Positions 3,752 to 24,173 of a DNA stretch of 24,173 bases are shown here, piece by piece. Each line of letters opens with the position of its first letter. Position 1 is the stretch's first letter. Both the position numbers and the translations under genes were made by a program. The notes under the pieces were generated by a model. That model saw nothing but the letters and a program-made list of their open reading frames with translations, was not told the origin of the DNA and searched no databases. The stretch spans positions 1 through 24,173 of the IMG/VR virus record IMGVR_UViG_3300009684_000171, one strand, 5' to 3'. Origin of the DNA: a virus.

Positions 3752-4201
3752 ATGGCAAAATACTATTCAACCAAGCATTACGGACACAACATTGGTCTAA
3801 GTGCGGTATTTAGACAACCCAACGCAGATCACAGCCACTGTCATTTGTTGCACGGCTACAGTCTAGCATTTACATTTACATTTGGTTGTGATCAATTAGA
3901 CAACAAAAACTGGGCGGTGGACTTTGGCGGACTCAAACCACTCAAGGCCTGGTTAGAAGATCACTTTGATCACAAGTTGGCCCTAGATCGCAATGATCCT
4001 TATCTGGCCAAGTTTCAAGAATTACAAGCATTGGATCTAGCAGAGATTAGAATATTTGACGGAGTAGGTGCAGAGAAGTTTGCCGAACACGCATTCAATT
4101 TTGCTGATCAATTGATCAGAAATCACACCAACAATCGATGCTATTGTGTTCGAGTTGAGTGTGCTGAGCATGGTGCCAATTCTGCAATATACGAAGGATA
4201 A
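3752..4201 (+). CDS. QueD/6-pyruvoyl-tetrahydropterin synthase-like protein, variant metal site
   Basis: A 149-residue member of the QueD/PTPS fold family, which normally converts dihydroneopterin triphosphate to a carboxy- or pyruvoyl-tetrahydropterin on the way to 7-deazaguanines or biopterin. Supporting motifs are HCHLLHGYSL (residues 29-38), NWAVDFGGLKPLKAWLED (53-70), FDHKLAL (72-78) and RVECAEHGANSAIY (134-147). Canonical enzymes bind zinc through the His of an FSAAH-type motif and both His of HGH. Here the first appears to be Phe20 in LSAVFRQ, and the second His of HGH is Tyr36. I recall a bacterial and phage subfamily with FRQ...HC..LHGY, so this is probably a divergent clade rather than decay. 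No other queuosine gene is in the window. The nucleotidyltransferase gene starts three bases after its stop. Confidence 0.82.
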   Translation: MAKYYSTKHYGHNIGLSAVFRQPNADHSHCHLLHGYSLAFTFTFGCDQLDNKNWAVDFGGLKPLKAWLEDHFDHKLALDRNDPYLAKFQELQALDLAEIRIFDGVGAEKFAEHAFNFADQLIRNHTNNRCYCVRVECAEHGANSAIYEG

Positions 4202-4687: not shown

Positions 4688-4722
4688 AAAAAGTATTAGT
4701 TACAGGTAGTGCTGGCTATTGA
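4684..4722 (+). pseudogene. 5' remnant of a sugar-nucleotide SDR gene
   Basis: An ATG overlapping the preceding stop (ATGA, 4684-4687) opens MKKVLVTGSAGY and then hits TGA at 4720-4722. This is the classic N-terminal beta-alpha dinucleotide-binding start (VTGxAGY) of extended SDR epimerases/dehydratases, cut before the third glycine. The cut coincides with the 3' end of the opposite-strand GIY-YIG endonuclease gene (4716). It is related to, but not identical with, the start of the complete SDR at 5493 ([12 protein letters not shown]). I read it as the stump of a gene interrupted or replaced by the homing endonuclease. Confidence 0.7.
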
Positions 4723-5363
4723 TTTCTTTTTGATTCTAAAGGATAACACATCCATCCTTTATGGTTTGATTGCCTATTGTAGGCCACTTTAATCATATTT
4801 GAATCATGCAGATTATTTTCTTGACAAAATGTTTTTAGATTTTTAACGATAAAAACATCACCATCAGGATTTACTATTTTCCAAGTTTTTGACATATTTT
4901 TGTCAGATCCTATTTCTCGTTTAGTAGCTAAAGATTTTGCTGCCGATTCTGATGTTGCTAAAGGTATTCCATTTTTTCTCTTAGTATCTACACCTTTTTG
5001 AGCACCAATTTTATCTGTTCCTCTTAATTTTTTAGTTATCTGTTGTTTTTTGGCGGCCTCTGTAGTACAGCCTCCTTCGCCAGATTCCGGTTTAAGATTT
5101 GCCCATATTTTTTTACCATTTTGATGTTTAGCATTTATAATATCCCAAAGATTACTATAATACAACCCCCACTCTTTGACTTCTTTTTTAGAGTAGCATT
5201 CTCGAATTATTTCTGTTGTATAATCTCTTCCGTGAATTTTGAGATGCGGGATCCAATATTCTCCAGATCCTGTATACTTATGTGGATCTTCTGATTTAGT
5301 GAATCCCAGATATTTTAAACCTGTTTTATTATGTGTCTTAACATACAACTTGTAAATAGTCAT
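4716..5363 (-). CDS. GIY-YIG homing endonuclease (Seg-like)
   Basis: A 215-residue minus-strand gene. The N-terminal catalytic GIY-YIG motif appears as KLYVK (residues 5-9) and KYLGFT (17-22), followed by the typical YTGSGEYWIPHLKIHG and EIIREC segments. A basic linker rich in Lys, Ser and Ala follows, then a C-terminal DNA-binding module (about residues 165-205) with a predicted helix-turn-helix, LKTFCQENNLHDSNMIKVA, ending in HKGWM. The latter resembles the modular IENR/NUMOD-type recognition domains of intron and free-standing homing endonucleases. Such enzymes cut a target in endonuclease-free relatives so that repair copies the gene across. No group I intron is evident, so it is probably free-standing. 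It starts at ATG 5363 behind AAGGA, in a leader shared with the HNH gene. Confidence 0.92.
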   Translation of the reverse strand: MTIYKLYVKTHNKTGLKYLGFTKSEDPHKYTGSGEYWIPHLKIHGRDYTTEIIRECYSKKEVKEWGLYYSNLWDIINAKHQNGKKIWANLKPESGEGGCTTEAAKKQQITKKLRGTDKIGAQKGVDTKRKNGIPLATSESAAKSLATKREIGSDKNMSKTWKIVNPDGDVFIVKNLKTFCQENNLHDSNMIKVAYNRQSNHKGWMCYPLESKRNQ

Positions 5364-5391
5364 GCTGATAGTTCCTTATAAACTGTTAGAG
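5364..5391 (-). repeat. Homing-endonuclease leader repeat, copy 1
   Basis: These 28 bases, directly upstream of the GIY-YIG start, are identical to 18246-18273 upstream of the HNH gene. On the minus strand the repeat begins CTCTAACAG, contains TTTATAAGGA (a ribosome binding site) and ends in ATCAGC next to the ATG. Just upstream, an imperfect stem can form from GTAGTT and AACTAC arms. Confidence 0.85.
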
Positions 5392-5492
5392 TAGTTGGAG
5401 AGGTAATGGGCTCGCGAACTACACCAATATTTATATTCTTATTGACTTTTCGGCTATTTGAATATAATATATGATATAATAAAAAGGATATT
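5392..5492 (+). promoter_or_regulatory. Leader of the SDR gene, weak promoter-like boxes
   Basis: This AT-rich stretch lies between the endonuclease leader and the SDR gene. It has TTGACT at 5442-5447 and TATAAT at 5463-5468 (spacer only 15 bases), a second TATAAT at 5475-5480, and an AAAAGGA ribosome binding site before ATG 5493. A promoter is plausible, because the opposite-strand endonuclease separates this gene from the upstream operon. Confidence 0.4.
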
Positions 5493-9275: not shown

Positions 9276-9992
9276 ATGTACAAAAAAATATCACACAATA
9301 TTGTTGAAGAGCATTTTGATCATCCGGCAGTACTGCCTGTCGGAATGATTGATAAACCCGTATCAATGTCTATGTTATCTAACGAATTAACACCGTTGCC
9401 TTCTGTGGTAATTAATGAACGTACATTGATTTTTCGTATGGATTCAAGAACTCTATGGACTAGATATGCATTGGGTATGATCAATTATTCAGTTAGTAGT
9501 TTTGGTAATATGCCCAGCACACCAGCTGTGGAAAAGAATCTCAGTAGAAATGCAGCAGGAATAGGAGATTATTTTATTCCTTATTATGGCATAACTGCTG
9601 GCACCAAGGTAGGTAACTTACTAGGTGTACTGTTGTTAAATGGAACGCGAGTGGTGGAAACTATTAAAAACAAGCAAACAGACATTGCAGTATACAAAGG
9701 AATCTGGAGCAGGCAGATTGATGATTTGGCTACATATCTAAACGAGCTAAATCCCAGTCAGTATCCCAGAGTTCTATTGATAGAGATGTTTACTAATCTT
9801 ACTAATTTTTGGACAGAAGATTTCATAGCTAGAGTTGCCAACAACTTTGCTACAGATGCCGTGGCACTAGATAACATAATGAAAGTGGCTGTAAGCGGTA
9901 TACCAAACCATGCCAACAAAGGTTACAGCAGTTTGGCTGATATACTCAGCAGAGGAATAGTTGCACAGTTTCCACTATTATTTTTGGAGTAA
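9276..9992 (+). CDS. Paralogous phage protein (MYKKI family), 238 aa, copy 1
   Basis: I chose ATG 9276 because its product starts MYKKISHNIVEEHFDHP, matching the paralog at 13536 (MYKKITHTIVEEHFDHP); an upstream in-frame TTG at 9261 overlaps the previous gene. Other shared points are FRMDSRT/FRLDART, YYGITAG/YYGTAAG, and a C-terminal part of the form SLADILSRGIVAQFP/GLADVFATGIIRQFP. Between them lie helical segments with Trp and Asn. No membrane helix or enzyme motif is seen. Both copies are followed by a gene for a Cys-containing coiled-coil protein, so the pair looks like a conserved two-gene module placed among fibre genes; I would guess a structural or assembly role. Confidence 0.8.
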   Translation: MYKKISHNIVEEHFDHPAVLPVGMIDKPVSMSMLSNELTPLPSVVINERTLIFRMDSRTLWTRYALGMINYSVSSFGNMPSTPAVEKNLSRNAAGIGDYFIPYYGITAGTKVGNLLGVLLLNGTRVVETIKNKQTDIAVYKGIWSRQIDDLATYLNELNPSQYPRVLLIEMFTNLTNFWTEDFIARVANNFATDAVALDNIMKVAVSGIPNHANKGYSSLADILSRGIVAQFPLLFLE

Positions 9993-13535: not shown

Positions 13536-14222
13536 ATGTACAAAAAAATTACTCATACCATAGTGGAAGAACATTTTGACCACCCCATGGCCGCGGAGAT
13601 CAAGGACCGTATGGAAAATTGCTCACCAACACCACCAGCAATGGCTGTTAACTTTGCTCAGGCAATCAAGTTTAGACTAGATGCTAGAACTTATTTTTCT
13701 GCACTACAGACCAAGGTAAGAAATCTTATCACTGATCTAGTTGAACCCAAAGACGAAGCTACTTCTGCTGTAAAATTAACTGATGTAGTTGATACTATCA
13801 ATAGATTGGGTTCAGTGGCAGCCATCTATTATGGAACTGCTGCTGGCGATCAACTGGCCACTCTGTTAAAAGATTTTGCATTGGCAGCGGCGGCACATGT
13901 TGGGATATTAAAAGCCAACGGTGATGCAACTGCGGCTAAAGCCAAATGTGCAGAAACCATTGCTGCAATTGCCAAATTTCTAAGCACCGCAAATCCTGAA
14001 TTTTGGCCAGCAACCGCAGTTACTGCCATCTTTACTGACTATTCTGATGCATTATTGGCACAGGCCGCTGCATTGATCAAGAAAGATGCCACAGCAGCAG
14101 TTGATGCAGAAAACACACAGCATGATGTTATCATGGGCAACACAATGGGCAAGGTAGGATTAGCTGATGTATTTGCCACTGGAATCATTAGACAATTTCC
14201 TGATCAATTCTCATTTAGATAA
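13536..14222 (+). CDS. Paralogous phage protein (MYKKI family), 228 aa, copy 2
   Basis: ATG at 13536 follows AAAGGAAAAATAAA, the same leader used by the genes at 7459 and 8242. It begins MYKKITHTIVEEHFDHP and matches the 9276 protein at its N-terminus, at FRLDART, at YYGTAAG and at the C-terminal GLADVFATGIIRQFPDQF. The middle is more Ala-rich and helical than in copy 1 (LAAAAHVGILKANGDATAAK). Copy 2 is followed by a small Cys-rich coiled-coil gene just as copy 1 is followed by a coiled-coil/membrane gene. Function is unknown; its position in the fibre cluster suggests virion assembly or structure. Confidence 0.82.
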   Translation: MYKKITHTIVEEHFDHPMAAEIKDRMENCSPTPPAMAVNFAQAIKFRLDARTYFSALQTKVRNLITDLVEPKDEATSAVKLTDVVDTINRLGSVAAIYYGTAAGDQLATLLKDFALAAAAHVGILKANGDATAAKAKCAETIAAIAKFLSTANPEFWPATAVTAIFTDYSDALLAQAAALIKKDATAAVDAENTQHDVIMGNTMGKVGLADVFATGIIRQFPDQFSFR

Positions 14223-14226
14223 TATT

Positions 14227-14403
14227 ATGTTTTTAAGACGTCAATGTTTTAAACACTTAGATGGACACTTGCACACTTGCAAGTGTTGCCAACGCTTTGA
14301 ACAACGATATGACATGCTAGCTGAAAGAATGTCAATGTTGGAACTGGCAACATCTGAATTTTTAAAACCAAAAAAAAAACTCACAACAACCAGTCCGGGC
14401 TGA
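14227..14403 (+). CDS. Small Cys-rich coiled-coil protein, 58 aa, possibly the N-terminus of the peptidase
   Basis: ATG at 14227 lies four bases after the previous stop. The product starts MFLRRQCFKHLDGHLHTCKC, giving a His/Cys cluster, and continues CQRFEQRYDMLAERMSMLE, which resembles the LLCGQRYGMLSDRLDRIE segment of the 9996 protein. It then runs through a Lys-rich stretch coded by an A10 tract and stops shortly after. If one A of the tract were lost or skipped, the frame would continue through SQQPVRADLYDSRDIIYQST into the peptidase, giving one protein of about 295 residues. Stand-alone function is therefore uncertain. Confidence 0.6.
   Translation: MFLRRQCFKHLDGHLHTCKCCQRFEQRYDMLAERMSMLELATSEFLKPKKKLTTTSPG
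14370..14379 (+). other. A10 tract at a reading-frame junction
   Basis: Ten consecutive A at the 3' end of the 14227 gene. Loss of one A (in the template, by transcriptional slippage, or as an assembly error here) joins that ORF in frame to the papain-like peptidase, which otherwise lacks a normal start. Confidence 0.6.
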
Positions 14404-14449
14404 TCTATACGACTCAAGAGATATAATTTATCAATCTACTGGTAAACAG

Positions 14450-15115
14450 TTGAGAGATCATGTTGATTTGAGAGAGTGGGCAAGTCCCATAGAGGAACAG
14501 TCCAGGCTGGGTAGTTGTGTTGGCAATGCCATAGTGGGTGCCTACGAGTTGTTGCTCAAGAAAGATTTTCCAGAAGAATTTTGCGATCTTAGTAGATTAT
14601 TTGTCTACTACAATGCACGGTTAATCGAAGGTACACCCGCAGTGGACAGTGGCGCTTATCTTAGAGATGGTATCAAGGCAGTTAGACAGAATGGAATTTG
14701 CCAGGAAAGCATCTGGCCCTATGATATCAAAAACTTTGCTGTAAGGCCTGGTGCAGCGGCCTACCTTGATGCACTACATAGAAATATTAAAAATTACCAT
14801 AGGCTAATCGGCACTGATCAGGTACTGGATGCATTGAACGACAATAGACCAGTGGTGCTGGCCTTGGATGTGTTTGATACGTTTGAATACATCAATTCCA
14901 TAAACAGTGTAATATCCATGCCCAAGCAATTCGAAACTGATCCTGGCGGACATGCTGTGTGTCTGGTGGGATATGATCTATCACGCCAGATGGTTTTGGC
15001 TAGAAACAGTTTTGGTCTAGAATGGGGTGATTCAGGATACTTTTGGATTCCGTTTGAATACTTACAAGCGCATACCTTGGATCAATGGGTGTTTGACATT
15101 GAACTGGCAAAATAA
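14450..15115 (+). CDS. Papain-like (C1 family) cysteine peptidase
   Basis: Numbered from a TTG at 14450, the catalytic residues are Gln17 and Cys23 in IEEQSRLGSCVGNA, His168 in DPGGHAVCLVGYD, and Asn186 in LARNSFGLEWGDSGYFWIP. This is a full papain-fold set. TTG is a poor choice of start: the same frame is open back to 14366, and its DLYDSRDIIYQSTGKQL stretch resembles the usual segment before the VDLR.W.SPIEEQ motif in bacterial and phage C1 peptidases. There is no ATG or GTG in that extension. Expression may therefore depend on slippage at the A10 tract. Phage C1-type peptidases are thought to mature virion proteins or modify the host; the target here is unknown. Confidence 0.82.
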   Translation: MRDHVDLREWASPIEEQSRLGSCVGNAIVGAYELLLKKDFPEEFCDLSRLFVYYNARLIEGTPAVDSGAYLRDGIKAVRQNGICQESIWPYDIKNFAVRPGAAAYLDALHRNIKNYHRLIGTDQVLDALNDNRPVVLALDVFDTFEYINSINSVISMPKQFETDPGGHAVCLVGYDLSRQMVLARNSFGLEWGDSGYFWIPFEYLQAHTLDQWVFDIELAK

Positions 15116-15575: not shown

Positions 15576-15748
15576 ATAGTATTAAAGAATGGTTTAAACG
15601 TAATCAAACTCCAATTACATTGTTTATCATTGGCTGGATGACTGTTAGCGGAATTGAATCTCTAGTTGTAGGCAATTACATTTGGGCAGTAATTTACTTT
15701 TTATGTGTCTATCTTAATTTTATGAATCTTGGTGAGAAATCAGCATGA
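15572..15748 (+). CDS. Small membrane protein, 58 aa
   Basis: A 58-residue gene linked by ATGA overlaps to both neighbours (15572-15575 and 15745-15748). The product starts MNSIKEWFKRNQTP, a basic amphipathic head, followed by hydrophobic segments at about 15-30 (ITLFIIGWMTVSGIES) and 33-50 (VGNYIWAVIYFLCVYLNF). That fits one or two membrane helices. The tight coupling supports a real gene; its role is unknown. Confidence 0.65.
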   Translation: MNSIKEWFKRNQTPITLFIIGWMTVSGIESLVVGNYIWAVIYFLCVYLNFMNLGEKSA

Positions 15749-16403
15749 CAACACTAATAGATTTTTTAACAAAATTAAAAACCACTGGGTTAAGCATCAA
15801 TACCATATATGATATTGGAGCATGTAACGGAGTGTGGAGCCAAGAAATAAAAGGTAATGTTTTTCCAAACAGTGAATTTATAATGTTTGAAGCAAATGCT
15901 GCACATACCAACCAATTAAGGAATACCGGATTAAAATATTTTCAATCTATATTATCAAATCCTGGAAGAGAATATGTTGAATTTTATACAAGGAATGGCA
16001 CAGGAGATAGCTATTACAAAGAAAATTCAACACATTATGATCATATAACTAGCACACAATTACCATGTACTACTCTTGATAAAATCATAGCAGAACATAA
16101 TCTTCCTAAACCTGATTTTATTAAATTAGATACACAAGGTTCAGAACTTGATATATTAGCAGGTGCTGAGAGTGTTATTATACAACAAAATTAATCTATA
16201 CCGAATGCCCAATTACTCAGTATAATATAGGGTCTCCAAATATAAATGATTATTTGGAATATTTTAAATCAAAGGATTTTTTACCTATAGATATACTAGA
16301 AATTCACAAAGCAGAAGAATTGCTAATTCAAGTAGATATAATGTTTATGAAAAAAGAATATAAAGAACAAATTTTTGGAAAGAGCATTACTCATAGACTA
16401 TGA
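15745..16403 (+). pseudogene. FkbM-type methyltransferase, broken by a one-base frameshift
   Basis: The first frame (149 residues, stop at 16192-16194) has the SAM-binding motif YDIGACNGVWS (residues 22-32), the acidic FEAN at 48-51, and the FkbM hallmark KLDTQGSELDILAGAE (127-142). It stops at IIQQN. The -1 frame then continues without a break to 16403 with KLIYTECPITQYNIGSPN, DYLEYFKSKDF and ILEIHKAEELLIQVDIMFMK, the normal C-terminal part of this family. One extra A in the AAAA at 16187-16190 restores a 219-residue enzyme of usual length. FkbM-type enzymes O-methylate sugars or small molecules and are common in polysaccharide loci. The site is not a canonical slippery heptamer, so this is either a recent mutation or a sequencing error. 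Confidence 0.82.
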
Positions 16404-16420
16404 GTAATTATTAATAAATT

Positions 16421-16612
16421 ATGACAACTACAGCAACATCTTGGACAATTACAGTAGAAGAAGATCCAGAAACTGGCGATCTATTGCTACCCTTACCTGA
16501 TGACTTTTTGGCCACGCAAGGATGGGTTGAAGGCGACGTTCTAGACTGGACGGATAATCTAGACGGTTCGTGGTCTATATCAAAAGTTGATAATCCAACC
16601 AACTTGACATAA
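16421..16612 (+). CDS. Small AbrB-like phage protein, 63 aa
   Basis: The product reads SWTITVEEDPETGDLLLPLP, then DDFLATQGWVEGDVLDWTDN, DGSWSISK. From memory this pattern (W.V.VEEDPE.GDL.LPLP, GW.EGD.L.W, DG.W...K) belongs to a small family frequent in cyanophages and other T4-like phages, with the swapped-hairpin AbrB/MazE-type look. AbrB-like proteins bind DNA or act as antitoxins, but no toxin gene is adjacent. The ATG lacks a clear ribosome binding site. A strong promoter for the next gene (-35 box at 16604) overlaps its last codons. Confidence 0.78.
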   Translation: MTTTATSWTITVEEDPETGDLLLPLPDDFLATQGWVEGDVLDWTDNLDGSWSISKVDNPTNLT

Positions 16613-16632
16613 TTGCAAGATTCATGTATAAT
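16604..16632 (+). promoter_or_regulatory. Sigma70-type promoter of the UV endonuclease gene
   Basis: Perfect TTGACA at 16604-16609, a 17-base spacer and perfect TATAAT at 16627-16632, in the same TGTATAATTAGTACT context as the promoter at 641. It is 28 bases from the 16661 start. Confidence 0.85.
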
Positions 16633-16660
16633 TAGTACTCAGTAATTAATAAAGAGTACT

Positions 16661-17683
16661 ATGAAACGAATTGGTTTTGCATGTAAATGGTTGAATGATC
16701 CCAGCGAATGTGGTGGCATGAAAGTAAATGCTGTGGATCGAGATCTAAACGGACGCAGCACTACTATGCGCTGGCTGCGTGAACATGCCGCCGAAGCCGA
16801 ACAGCGTCAGTGGGATATTATGAATCACAACGCAACCGCAGCACTCAACATGGTTGAGCGAGTAGGAAGTTTGGCTCCAAATCTGCGTATGGTGAGGTTA
16901 GGTAGTGAAATGCTGCAAGGATATACACACGAGGATTGGATCCCATTTTGGAAACAGGCTGATGTGCAAGCACATTGCGAAAAAATCTTTGCTCCTGTAG
17001 GCGAGGCTGCACGTAGACTGGATGTTAGACTAAGTTTCCATCCCGGACAATTCTGTGTGTTAGCAAGTGCTAATCCTGGAATTGTGGAGCGTAGTATTTT
17101 AGAATTTGAATATCACGCTGACATGGCTCGTTGGATGGGATATGGAAAGTCTTTTCAAGATTTTAAAATCAATGTACACATCAGTGGTCAACGCGGACCT
17201 GAAGGTTTTAGAGAAACCTACAGCAAACTCAGCAACGAAGCAAGAAATTGCATCACAATTGAAAATGAAGAAAACTCTTGGGGATTAGATGATTGTCTTA
17301 CTATTAGCGACTTGGTGCCTATCGTTCTGGATGTGCATCACCATTGGATCAAAACAGGAGATTACATCTCACCCTTGGACAGCCGTGTTGATCGCGTGGT
17401 TCAGTCTTGGCGTGGTGTCCGGCCTACTATGCACTATAGTGTCAGCCGTGAAGATTACCTCGTGGATCATGACACTGATGTAATGCCAGATTACAAATTG
17501 TTGTTAGAAACCGGATATAAAAAACAGAAGATGAGAGCTCATTCAGATTTTATGTGGAATAGTAGTGTTAACGAATGGGCATTAAGTTTTCTCAACACAC
17601 ACGATATTATGGTAGAAGCTAAAGGTAAAAATTTAGCCAGTTTTGCTTTGGCAGAACAAGCCCAACAATTAGGACTGTTGTAG
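16661..17683 (+). CDS. uvsE: UV damage endonuclease (UvsE/UvdE)
   Basis: A 340-residue TIM-barrel endonuclease of the UvdE family, which nicks DNA 5' to pyrimidine dimers and other lesions and starts alternative excision repair. Visible motifs in order: IGFACKWLN at the N-terminus, LSFHPGQF (His127), NVHISG (His173), ITIENEE (Glu201/203), LDVHHHW (Asp224 to His228), TMHYS (His258), AHSDFMW, and VEAKGKNLA near the end. These supply the His/Glu/Asp metal ligands of the family. Phages of photic waters often carry it to repair their own genomes. It has its own strong promoter. The opposite-strand HNH gene overlaps its 3' end by 15 bases, but the C-terminus looks complete. Confidence 0.94.
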   Translation: MKRIGFACKWLNDPSECGGMKVNAVDRDLNGRSTTMRWLREHAAEAEQRQWDIMNHNATAALNMVERVGSLAPNLRMVRLGSEMLQGYTHEDWIPFWKQADVQAHCEKIFAPVGEAARRLDVRLSFHPGQFCVLASANPGIVERSILEFEYHADMARWMGYGKSFQDFKINVHISGQRGPEGFRETYSKLSNEARNCITIENEENSWGLDDCLTISDLVPIVLDVHHHWIKTGDYISPLDSRVDRVVQSWRGVRPTMHYSVSREDYLVDHDTDVMPDYKLLLETGYKKQKMRAHSDFMWNSSVNEWALSFLNTHDIMVEAKGKNLASFALAEQAQQLGLL

Positions 17684-18244
17684 CATCCATCCTTTTACAG
17701 ATTTATATCTGCCTTTTAATAATTCACATATATTACCTTGATTTAGATCGTACGTTTTTATTAGATCGTATCTAGTAGCACTGAGAGTTATTCCTGTTTT
17801 TTTGTTATACCAGTTATATATTGTATGATCAAACATCCAATGCTTCTGTCCGTGTTGATCTATTTTTTGGAAATTATGTTTGCCCTCTTTTACCAATTTA
17901 TTAGTACCGGCACGAAACCCTTCTACTGCCTGAGATTTAATCGTGGCATAAACTCTGGATGTTAACGGTGTATTATATCTTTGGTGATTTTTATGACTAG
18001 ACCTCATCATAACAAGTGCCATACACATTTTCATCTTATGTTGGCCTTCTGTCATTTTAGTTAATAGCCAGTGGCATATAAAATGTTCTCTAGCGGTAAG
18101 AGCAACTATATTAAATTTTTTATTAGATCCGCCCAGACTTTTTGGAATAATATGATGACGCTCAGTATAGCCTTCTATATTTCTATTCTGGGCAGAAGAA
18201 ATGATAGAATTATACCATCGGGTATACTTGTTTTGTAAATACAT
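17669..18244 (-). CDS. HNH homing endonuclease
   Basis: A minus-strand gene of 191 residues from ATG 18244, behind AAGGA in a leader shared with the GIY-YIG gene. A longer in-frame start at 18304 would translate the conserved leader itself and is less likely. The HNH motif is RHHIIPKSLGGSNKKFNIVA (first His pair and the Asn), then LTAREHFICHWLL with the final His. The C-terminal part (about 140-188) has the same kind of DNA-recognition module as the GIY-YIG enzyme: a strand, a helix-turn-helix (LIKTYDLNQGNICELLKGRY) and an SVKGWM end. It would spread by cutting endonuclease-free relatives, probably near uvsE. Its 3' end overlaps uvsE by 15 bases without disrupting it. Confidence 0.92.
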   Translation of the reverse strand: MYLQNKYTRWYNSIISSAQNRNIEGYTERHHIIPKSLGGSNKKFNIVALTAREHFICHWLLTKMTEGQHKMKMCMALVMMRSSHKNHQRYNTPLTSRVYATIKSQAVEGFRAGTNKLVKEGKHNFQKIDQHGQKHWMFDHTIYNWYNKKTGITLSATRYDLIKTYDLNQGNICELLKGRYKSVKGWMLQQS

Positions 18245-18245
18245 A

Positions 18246-18273
18246 GCTGATAGTTCCTTATAAACTGTTAGAG
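18246..18273 (-). repeat. Homing-endonuclease leader repeat, copy 2
   Basis: Identical over 28 bases to 5364-5391 and placed identically, with the HNH ATG one base further away. On the minus strand it contains TTTATAAGGA and ends ATCAGC. Upstream, a small stem (GTCC...GGAC) can form, comparable in place with the stem in copy 1, and both have CGCG about 20 bases before the repeat. Confidence 0.85.
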
Positions 18274-18321
18274 CTGATGGTCCCTGCCAGGACGCGATCG
18301 GCACTTTTATTTAGTTATAAG

Positions 18322-22231: not shown

Positions 22232-24173
22232 ATGGCCGCAAGACAAGACTTAACCGTACTACCAGCATTAACTAAACCTACCCAAGGCGAAACACAGTTC
22301 ATTGTCAAAGATTCAGGCATTGAACAAATATTAACTGTAGCTGCTGCCAAGAGTCTATTAGGCACCAAAGGTGATCAGGGCGCACAAGGAAGAACTGGAT
22401 TCACTGGAAGTTTAGGATATACAGGTAGTGTAGGTTTTACAGGTAGTCGCGGTGTTGGATTTACCGGCTCAAAAGGCGCCGATGGTAATTCAATTAGTAT
22501 CAAGGGATCAGTAGACACATCTGCTAGTTTACCCACTACGGGTAAAACATTAGGTGATGGTTATATTGCAACTGATACTGGTCATCTATGGATATATACA
22601 AATACCAATGCAGATGGTAGTGTACAGGGATTTATTGACATTGGTAGCATACTAGGACCAATAGGTCCTATTGGTTATACCGGTAGTATCGGTTATACCG
22701 GTAGTATTGGTTATACCGGATCAGTGGGGTATACTGGATCAGTGGGGTATACTGGATCAGTAGGGTATACTGGATCAGTAGGGTATACTGGATCAGTAGG
22801 GTATACTGGATCAGTGGGGTATACTGGATCTAGCGGAATAAAAGGTTTTACAGGCAGTGTGGGTTATACAGGCAGTGTGGGTTATACAGGATCAGCCGGC
22901 ACCGGTCTAAATATTATCGGAACTTTGAGCACATCTGCAGATTTGCAAGCAATTTCTAACAGTGTAATGGGCGATGGTTACATTGTTGCCGCTAATGGAC
23001 ATTTATGGGTATATACTAGTTCAGTTGCTGGTGGTTCAGTCAATGGATTTACCGATGTAGGAAATATTGTAGGTCCAAAAGGGTATACTGGCAGTACTGG
23101 TTATACTGGATCAAGTGGCTCAATTGGATATTATGGTAGCGTTGGGTACACTGGCTCAATTGGATATTATGGTAGCGTTGGGTACACTGGATCACGTGGC
23201 CCAATCGGATATTATGGTAGTGTTGGTTATACCGGCTCTATGGGTAGCTTTACAGGAACCACCGACCAAGCAGTTAATATTACAAACACCACATCAGCCA
23301 CATCAACTACAACTGGTGCATTAATTGTTGCCGGCGGGGCTGGTATCGGTGAAGCATTATACGTTGGTGGAAATATATACTCCAACAATTCGCAAGTAAT
23401 AACTACTGATACACTAGGATTGTTAACTAGTGGAAATTCAGATAAAGTATTTATAAATGCAGTTACAGCAGGTACTACTTATTATGTAGGTTTAACTGAA
23501 TTAACTGGCAATTATTCTCCAATTGATAGTGATTCCACACTGGCCTATGATACTACAGATAATAAACTAAGTTCTACTCGATTGGCAGTATCCGGAACAA
23601 CTTCTGCTACCAGTACAATTACAGGTGCATTAACTGTTGCTGGCGGTGTTGGTGTTGGTGGTGATTTGTATGTAGGTGGTAATATTACTGCCAATAAGTT
23701 AACAATCCAATACACTACGATTACTACAACTCTAGTCACTACTGATGATATTATTAGTACTTCAAATACTACAGCGTCTACATCAACTACTACTGGTGCA
23801 TTGACTGTTGCCGGCGGCGTTGGTATCGGTGGAGCATTGTATGTTGATGGAGATATTTATAGAAATGGCATTGCCATTGGTTATGGATATCAAGGCGCTC
23901 AAGGATTCCAAGGATATCAAGGAGCCCAAGGACAACAAGGCTATCAAGGCGCAACTGGATCACAAGGATTCCAAGGATATCAAGGAGCCCAAGGACGACA
24001 AGGCTATCAAGGTAATCAAGGATATCAGGGCAATCAGGGCAATCAAGGATTCCAAGGTGCGCAAGGCGCACAGGGTAATCAAGGCTACCAAGGCAATCAA
24101 GGATATCAGGGCGCACAAGGTGCTCAGGGCAATCAGGGATTCCAAGGTAATCAAGGATATCAGGGCAATCAAG
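22232..24173 (+). CDS. Giant collagen-like tail fibre, 3' end outside window
   Basis: ATG at 22232 opens a frame with no stop through the window end (647 codons visible). Order of parts: an N-terminal module ([20 protein letters not shown], then [10 protein letters not shown]); a first collagen-like stretch of [11 protein letters not shown] triplets; a globular insert ending [14 protein letters not shown]; nine GYTGSx repeats (22673-22834); a second copy of the insert with [25 protein letters not shown] repeats; three [15 protein letters not shown] repeats; and finally Gly-X-Gln repeats ([10 protein letters not shown]) to the end. Such proteins form thin trimeric fibres on phage tails or heads. 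There is almost no Pro, so stability must come from Thr, Ser, Gln and charged or aromatic pairs. A late-type octamer lies upstream. Confidence 0.92.
22673..22834 (+). repeat. 18-base tandem repeat, nine units (GYTGSx)
   Basis: Nine in-frame 18-base units. The five from 22727 to 22816 are nearly identical, differing only at one synonymous third base (GTG or GTA). The region is prone to unit gain or loss and to assembly collapse. Confidence 0.92.
23117..23233 (+). repeat. 36-base repeat in the collagen-like gene
   Basis: Two identical 36-base units (23117-23152, 23153-23188) coding [12 protein letters not shown], then a diverged third unit (23189-23233) with an extra GSRGP piece. Confidence 0.85.
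23879..24173 (+). repeat. Gly-X-Gln collagen-like repeat tract
   Basis: Nine-base based repeats of GGNxxxCAA type coding GYQ, GAQ, GFQ and GNQ triplets, with longer near-identical blocks such as the one starting at 23906 and again at 23966. The tract continues past the window end. The complementary strand is accidentally open because of the repeat structure. Confidence 0.9.

Follow-up and report, generated by a model that had tools for sequence, protein, structure and literature searches.

A papain-like peptidase gene interrupted at an A10 tract in a metagenomic virus record is probably an ordinary fused gene with a one-base insertion

The start-less papain-like peptidase frame in the 24,173-base virus record analyzed here (the window) and the 58-residue ORF that precedes it are shown, by comparison with the nearest relative, to be parts of one gene (14227-15115), because in that relative (L002, 68% identical) a single 295-aa ORF, MYLRRKCFKHSDGHLLTCRCCQRFEQRYD...LKLKKNSKYKVQADQYDGRD..., spans both halves of the window arrangement with nine A at the junction. 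Since the A9 form of L002 is in frame, the window represents "A9 plus one." We consider it probable that this is an ordinary fused peptidase gene in which the tenth A is an accidental one-base insertion, either an error or a real mutation. The initial annotation had proposed expression of the peptidase by slippage on the A10 tract, with a one-base assembly error as the main rival; given the in-frame A9 of L002 and a second frameshift in the nearby FkbM methyltransferase gene, slippage is not favored over that rival.

No other homopolymer in the window is as long as the A10 tract; 0.14 runs of at least ten A are expected (first-order expectation). The 58-residue ORF, the product of which reads MFLRRQCFKHLDGHLHTCKCCQRFEQRYD...KPKKKLTTTSPG*, stops just 3' of the tract, and the peptidase frame, displaced by +1 relative to this ORF, remains open for 249 residues, lacking an ATG or GTG both near its beginning and ahead of the catalytic region. 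The tract, the short ORF that stops just after it, and the start-less peptidase frame had been described in the initial annotation and were confirmed here. Direct calculation showed that transcripts with A9 or A12 give a fused product of ~295 aa, as had been anticipated for removal of one A, whereas those with A8, A10, or A11 do not (Table 1).

Table 1. Features of the peptidase gene and its surroundings in the window
Feature	Position	Strand	Comment
Upstream cassette gene, MYKKITHTIVEEHFDHP... family, 228 aa	13536..14222	+	Directly 5' of the peptidase in relatives
58-aa ORF, forming the N-terminal module of the fusion: a Cys/His-rich start followed by a long helix	14227..14403	+	68% identical to L002 residues 1-50
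Papain-like (C1, xylellain-type) peptidase frame, without ATG/GTG start	14366..15115	+	Fused coding part 14378-15115
A10 tract	14370..14379	+	A9 at the orthologous position of L002, frame continuous
TTG, first and only NTG codon 5' of the catalytic Cys	14450..14452	+	Inside the family-conserved region
Oxyanion-hole Gln	14498..14500	+	Invariant in homologue alignments
Catalytic Cys	14516..14518	+	Invariant in homologue alignments
Catalytic His	14951..14953	+	Invariant in homologue alignments
Catalytic Asn	15005..15007	+	Invariant in homologue alignments
FkbM methyltransferase, split	15745..16403	+	15745-16194, then 16182-16403 in another frame

The peptidase frame matches the Pfam family Peptidase_C1 (E-value = 2.3e-13, 51.2 bits, above the curated cut-off of 20.7) and, as originally annotated, contains the complete catalytic set, which is conserved among relatives. 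The best solved homologue by both sequence and fold is xylellain, a papain-like cysteine protease from Xylella fastidiosa (PDB 3ois), with which the phage peptidase shares an identical catalytic set (sequence match 1.4e-34 for the window frame and 1.5e-39 for L002). AlphaFold modeling from a 31-sequence alignment headed by L002 (pLDDT 91) yielded a structure for which xylellain was the best solved match (Foldseek 3.2e-25, TM 0.75-0.83), and the best viral model in the fold search was a Peptidase_C1 protein from an uncultured phage. Judging from the domain match, the catalytic residues, and the predicted fold of the L002 orthologue, the window protein is a papain-like C1 peptidase of the xylellain type. 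A search of bacterial genome contigs with this peptidase returned no matches. In the model, a long helix spans residues 19-50, and the tract-encoded KLKKN lies at the end of this helix, at its boundary with the peptidase. The proteins of the window and L002 thus add to the peptidase a Cys/His-rich segment and a long helix (residues 1-50) that are unmatched in xylellain; the initial annotation had predicted a His/Cys cluster, a coiled coil, and a peptidase, and in L002, the cluster, a long helix, and the peptidase are indeed encoded in the one ORF.

The DNA alignment of the window and L002 contains a single gap at the junction, the tenth A (CTA AAA AAA AAC TCT in L002 versus CCA A10 C TCA in the window), and among the genes that the two share, this is the only frameshift. 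By first, second, and third codon position, there are 11/9/24 differences upstream of the tract, 7/5/13 from the tract to the TTG codon, and 17/9/42 in the peptidase; third positions diverge most on either side of the tract, so that divergence is coding-like on both sides. The stretch between the tract and the TTG codon aligns to xylellain and to L002, in line with the earlier observation that the frame upstream of VDLREW is family-like, and is genuine family sequence. A search of the collections and 23 records detected the N-terminal module only in the window and L002; in 22 other related virus records it was not found. L002 is accordingly the only orthologue with this module available for comparison of the junction (n = 1), and a search for the exact junction pattern with a variable A run identified no second copy in viral contigs. 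A bacterial match of 15 residues (L142) was discarded as spurious, the frame being full of stops.

The family of the upstream cassette gene is the neighbor of the peptidase also in L002, L003/L004, and many other relatives. The product of this gene carries a conserved N-terminal tag, MYKKITHxIVEEHFDHP, which heads proteins of different lengths, including those encoded at 9279-9992 and 13536-14222 in the window, at 3834-4001 in the related locus L060, and in many other related loci. The tag may serve in targeting to the virion or as a processing signal.

We propose that 14227-15115 would encode a protein of ~295 residues, consisting of a short Cys/His-rich segment, a long helix, and a xylellain-type peptidase, and that this gene would belong to a virion/tail-fibre gene cassette. 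The ancestral, normal form would have nine A at the junction and be read straight through; the tenth A would be a one-base insertion that arose either as an assembly or sequencing error or as a true mutation, by replication slippage, in the phage that was sampled. The second frameshift bears directly on this proposal. The FkbM gene is broken by one base at ~16182-16194, 1.8 kb downstream of the A10 tract, whereas in viral relatives (L129, L131, and L134-L137), the FkbM ORF is intact, with ~220-aa products that match both window halves at ~50-60% identity. A comparison with Pelagibacter phage Mosig over the C-terminal part of FkbM gave no useful information, closer viral relatives being needed. 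With two one-base frameshifts less than 2 kb apart, both in genes that are intact elsewhere, recent mutation or indels in the record are favored rather than programming. A published survey of frame transitions in prokaryotes expects a singleton to be a sequencing error when fused homologues validate its frameshift (PMC3711429). The initial annotation had suggested that a fused ORF with a non-homopolymer Lys stretch in related phages would point to an error; the fused ORF was found and speaks for an error, but the non-homopolymer stretch was not, L002 retaining a run of nine A. This long run, kept through ~30% protein divergence, counts against an accidental insertion. Its conservation was rejected as a sign of selection, being weak evidence given that AAA is the commoner Lys codon (124 AAA versus 85 AAG in the sampled genes) and that the window and L002 share ancestry. 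On balance, we infer an accidental insertion, with the fused product as the functional form.

Whatever its origin, the A tract is a plausible slippage site, with ten A located in the overlap of two ORFs that slippage could join. Under a transcriptional slippage mechanism, programmed or rescuing, the A10 would be real and would specify the 58-aa product, with slippage to A9 or A12 restoring the frame and yielding the ~295-aa peptidase; we regard this as unlikely. In L002, the roles would be reversed, A9 giving the long form, and one extra A leading to a stop two codons on and a product of ~52 aa. Such an arrangement would be consistent with the position of the tract exactly at the domain boundary of the AlphaFold model, and there are precedents. 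In Citrobacter rodentium tssM1, an A11 run precedes a premature stop, transcripts carry 10-15 A, and 20-25% of the product is full-length, from the +1 frame (PMC4256274). The likeness to the window is close: an interrupted gene, an A run just before the premature stop, and a C-terminal domain in the +1 frame. The two cases differ in that the tssM1 work measured the RNA heterogeneity along with both proteins and verified the premature stop by resequencing (PMC4256274), and in that the closest relative of the window is in frame. Similarly, the in-frame A9 of Thermus thermophilus dnaX is aligned by the A10 of split dnaX genes in other species (PMC3711429), a pair that the A9 of L002 and the A10 of the window mirror, but the A10 arrangement of dnaX is common to many species, and that of the window is a singleton. 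Several observations weigh against slippage: the out-of-frame layout is not conserved in the sole orthologue that has the N-terminal module; the tail of the short product differs between the window and L002 (KL* versus KLTTTSPG*) and so is not conserved; the FkbM gene on the same contig carries another one-base frameshift; and slippage on A/T runs in Escherichia coli and Buchnera consists mostly of single-base insertions (PMC5574713), which here would produce A11 and a dead frame.

To place the junction in a broader context, we compared 80 homologous loci and 30 more from a second search. In most relatives, the peptidase begins with an ATG of its own, placed at the preceding gene's stop or close to it, which favors an ordinary gene with an insertion in the window; the sequence in L003/L004, for example, is TAAATG. 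Besides the window, start-less peptidases were found in L060/L062 and, more weakly, in L018. L060 and L062 are separate records that are identical over 8,714 bases. In these (L060 3834-4720), a 55-aa ORF that carries the conserved tag MYKKITHYIIEEHFD terminates directly 3' of an A8 run (GGAGGAAGGCCTAAAAAAAAGTTCATAG), and the start-less peptidase continues at -1, with a slippery A_AAA_AAA heptamer in the upstream frame (CTA AAA AAA AGT) and a Shine-Dalgarno-like GGAGG 7 nt upstream of it; 3' folding was not better than that of shuffled sequences (z = 0.17). The arrangement resembles the -1 frameshift cassettes of the dnaX and IS type (SD plus A_AAA_AAN heptamer), and on its sequence features, L060/L062 is a candidate for -1 ribosomal frameshifting and a better recoding candidate than the window. 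In L018 (3375-4735), the peptidase frame has no NTG start and opens at the end of an upstream 202-aa gene across TTTTAAAAAAG (a T4A6 run), again in the -1 frame. For the window, -1 ribosomal frameshifting was rejected: the peptidase frame lies at +1, so that the direction is wrong and a shift of +1 or -2 would be needed, to which the dnaX/IS-type mechanism is unsuited. Folding of the window 3' of the junction gave z values of -0.64 to -1.26, with no significant stimulatory RNA structure, and Rfam and tRNA scans gave no matches.

Unexpectedly, start-less peptidases do recur, in L060/L062 and in L018, and these two further lineages count against an accidental insertion in the window. Runs of at least eight A occur at the peptidase junction of the window, L002, and L060, that is, in two independent lineages (window/L002 and L060), which also fits slippage; such runs are rare in 84 loci, with 0.23 expected by density (P ~0.02 for two independent lineages, post hoc). 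In this group of uncultured phages, the peptidases might have repeatedly lost their own start and be made only as frameshifted C-terminal extensions of an upstream virion-cassette ORF at A runs. The recoding routes would differ, with transcriptional slippage in window/L002 and -1 ribosomal frameshifting in L060/L062, and L018 might be a further case. We consider such a history quite improbable. If it is true, the amount of peptidase joined to the virion module would be limited.

A genuine null mutation is conceivable as well, with the A10 real and the peptidase decaying or unexpressed in the window phage. The neighboring FkbM gene is likewise broken, but the 249 peptidase codons contain no stop or other lesion and keep all catalytic residues; because the frame is intact, any loss would be very recent, and we rate this reading as very unlikely. 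Least probable of all is that a non-AUG codon (TTG 14450, or an ATT or ATA nearby, which are rarer starts) serves for translation of the peptidase alone, with coupling to the stop of the upstream ORF: many relatives do begin the peptidase right at the stop of the upstream gene, but no in-frame ATG, GTG, or TTG lies upstream of this TTG, which sits within the conserved region, 22 residues N-terminal to the catalytic Cys. A start there would drop conserved N-terminal family sequence, including a DxRD motif shared without exception by 31 homologues.

Several other features of the window were recorded. A 35-nt direct repeat (91% identical) is present at 5364-5398 and 18246-18280, 12.9 kb apart, each copy adjoining a minus-strand ORF that by eye resembles a homing endonuclease (GIY-YIG-like at 4716-5363 and HNH-like at 17669-18304). 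A 41-nt element in two copies (639-679 and 16602-16642) contains consensus-like sigma-70 boxes (TTGACA...TATAAT) 5' of genes. A collagen-like ORF with Gly repeats (22232-24172) runs off the contig end and likely encodes a tail-fibre or virion surface protein.

The comparison with L002 corrects the annotation of this phage group, in that an orphan 58-aa ORF and a start-less peptidase are to be read as one gene. If no recoding is involved, the window illustrates how, in a metagenomic virus record, a one-base homopolymer indel can pass for recoding. If recoding does occur, this would be one of the rare phage examples in which protease dosage is controlled by producing the enzyme as an extension of a second protein.
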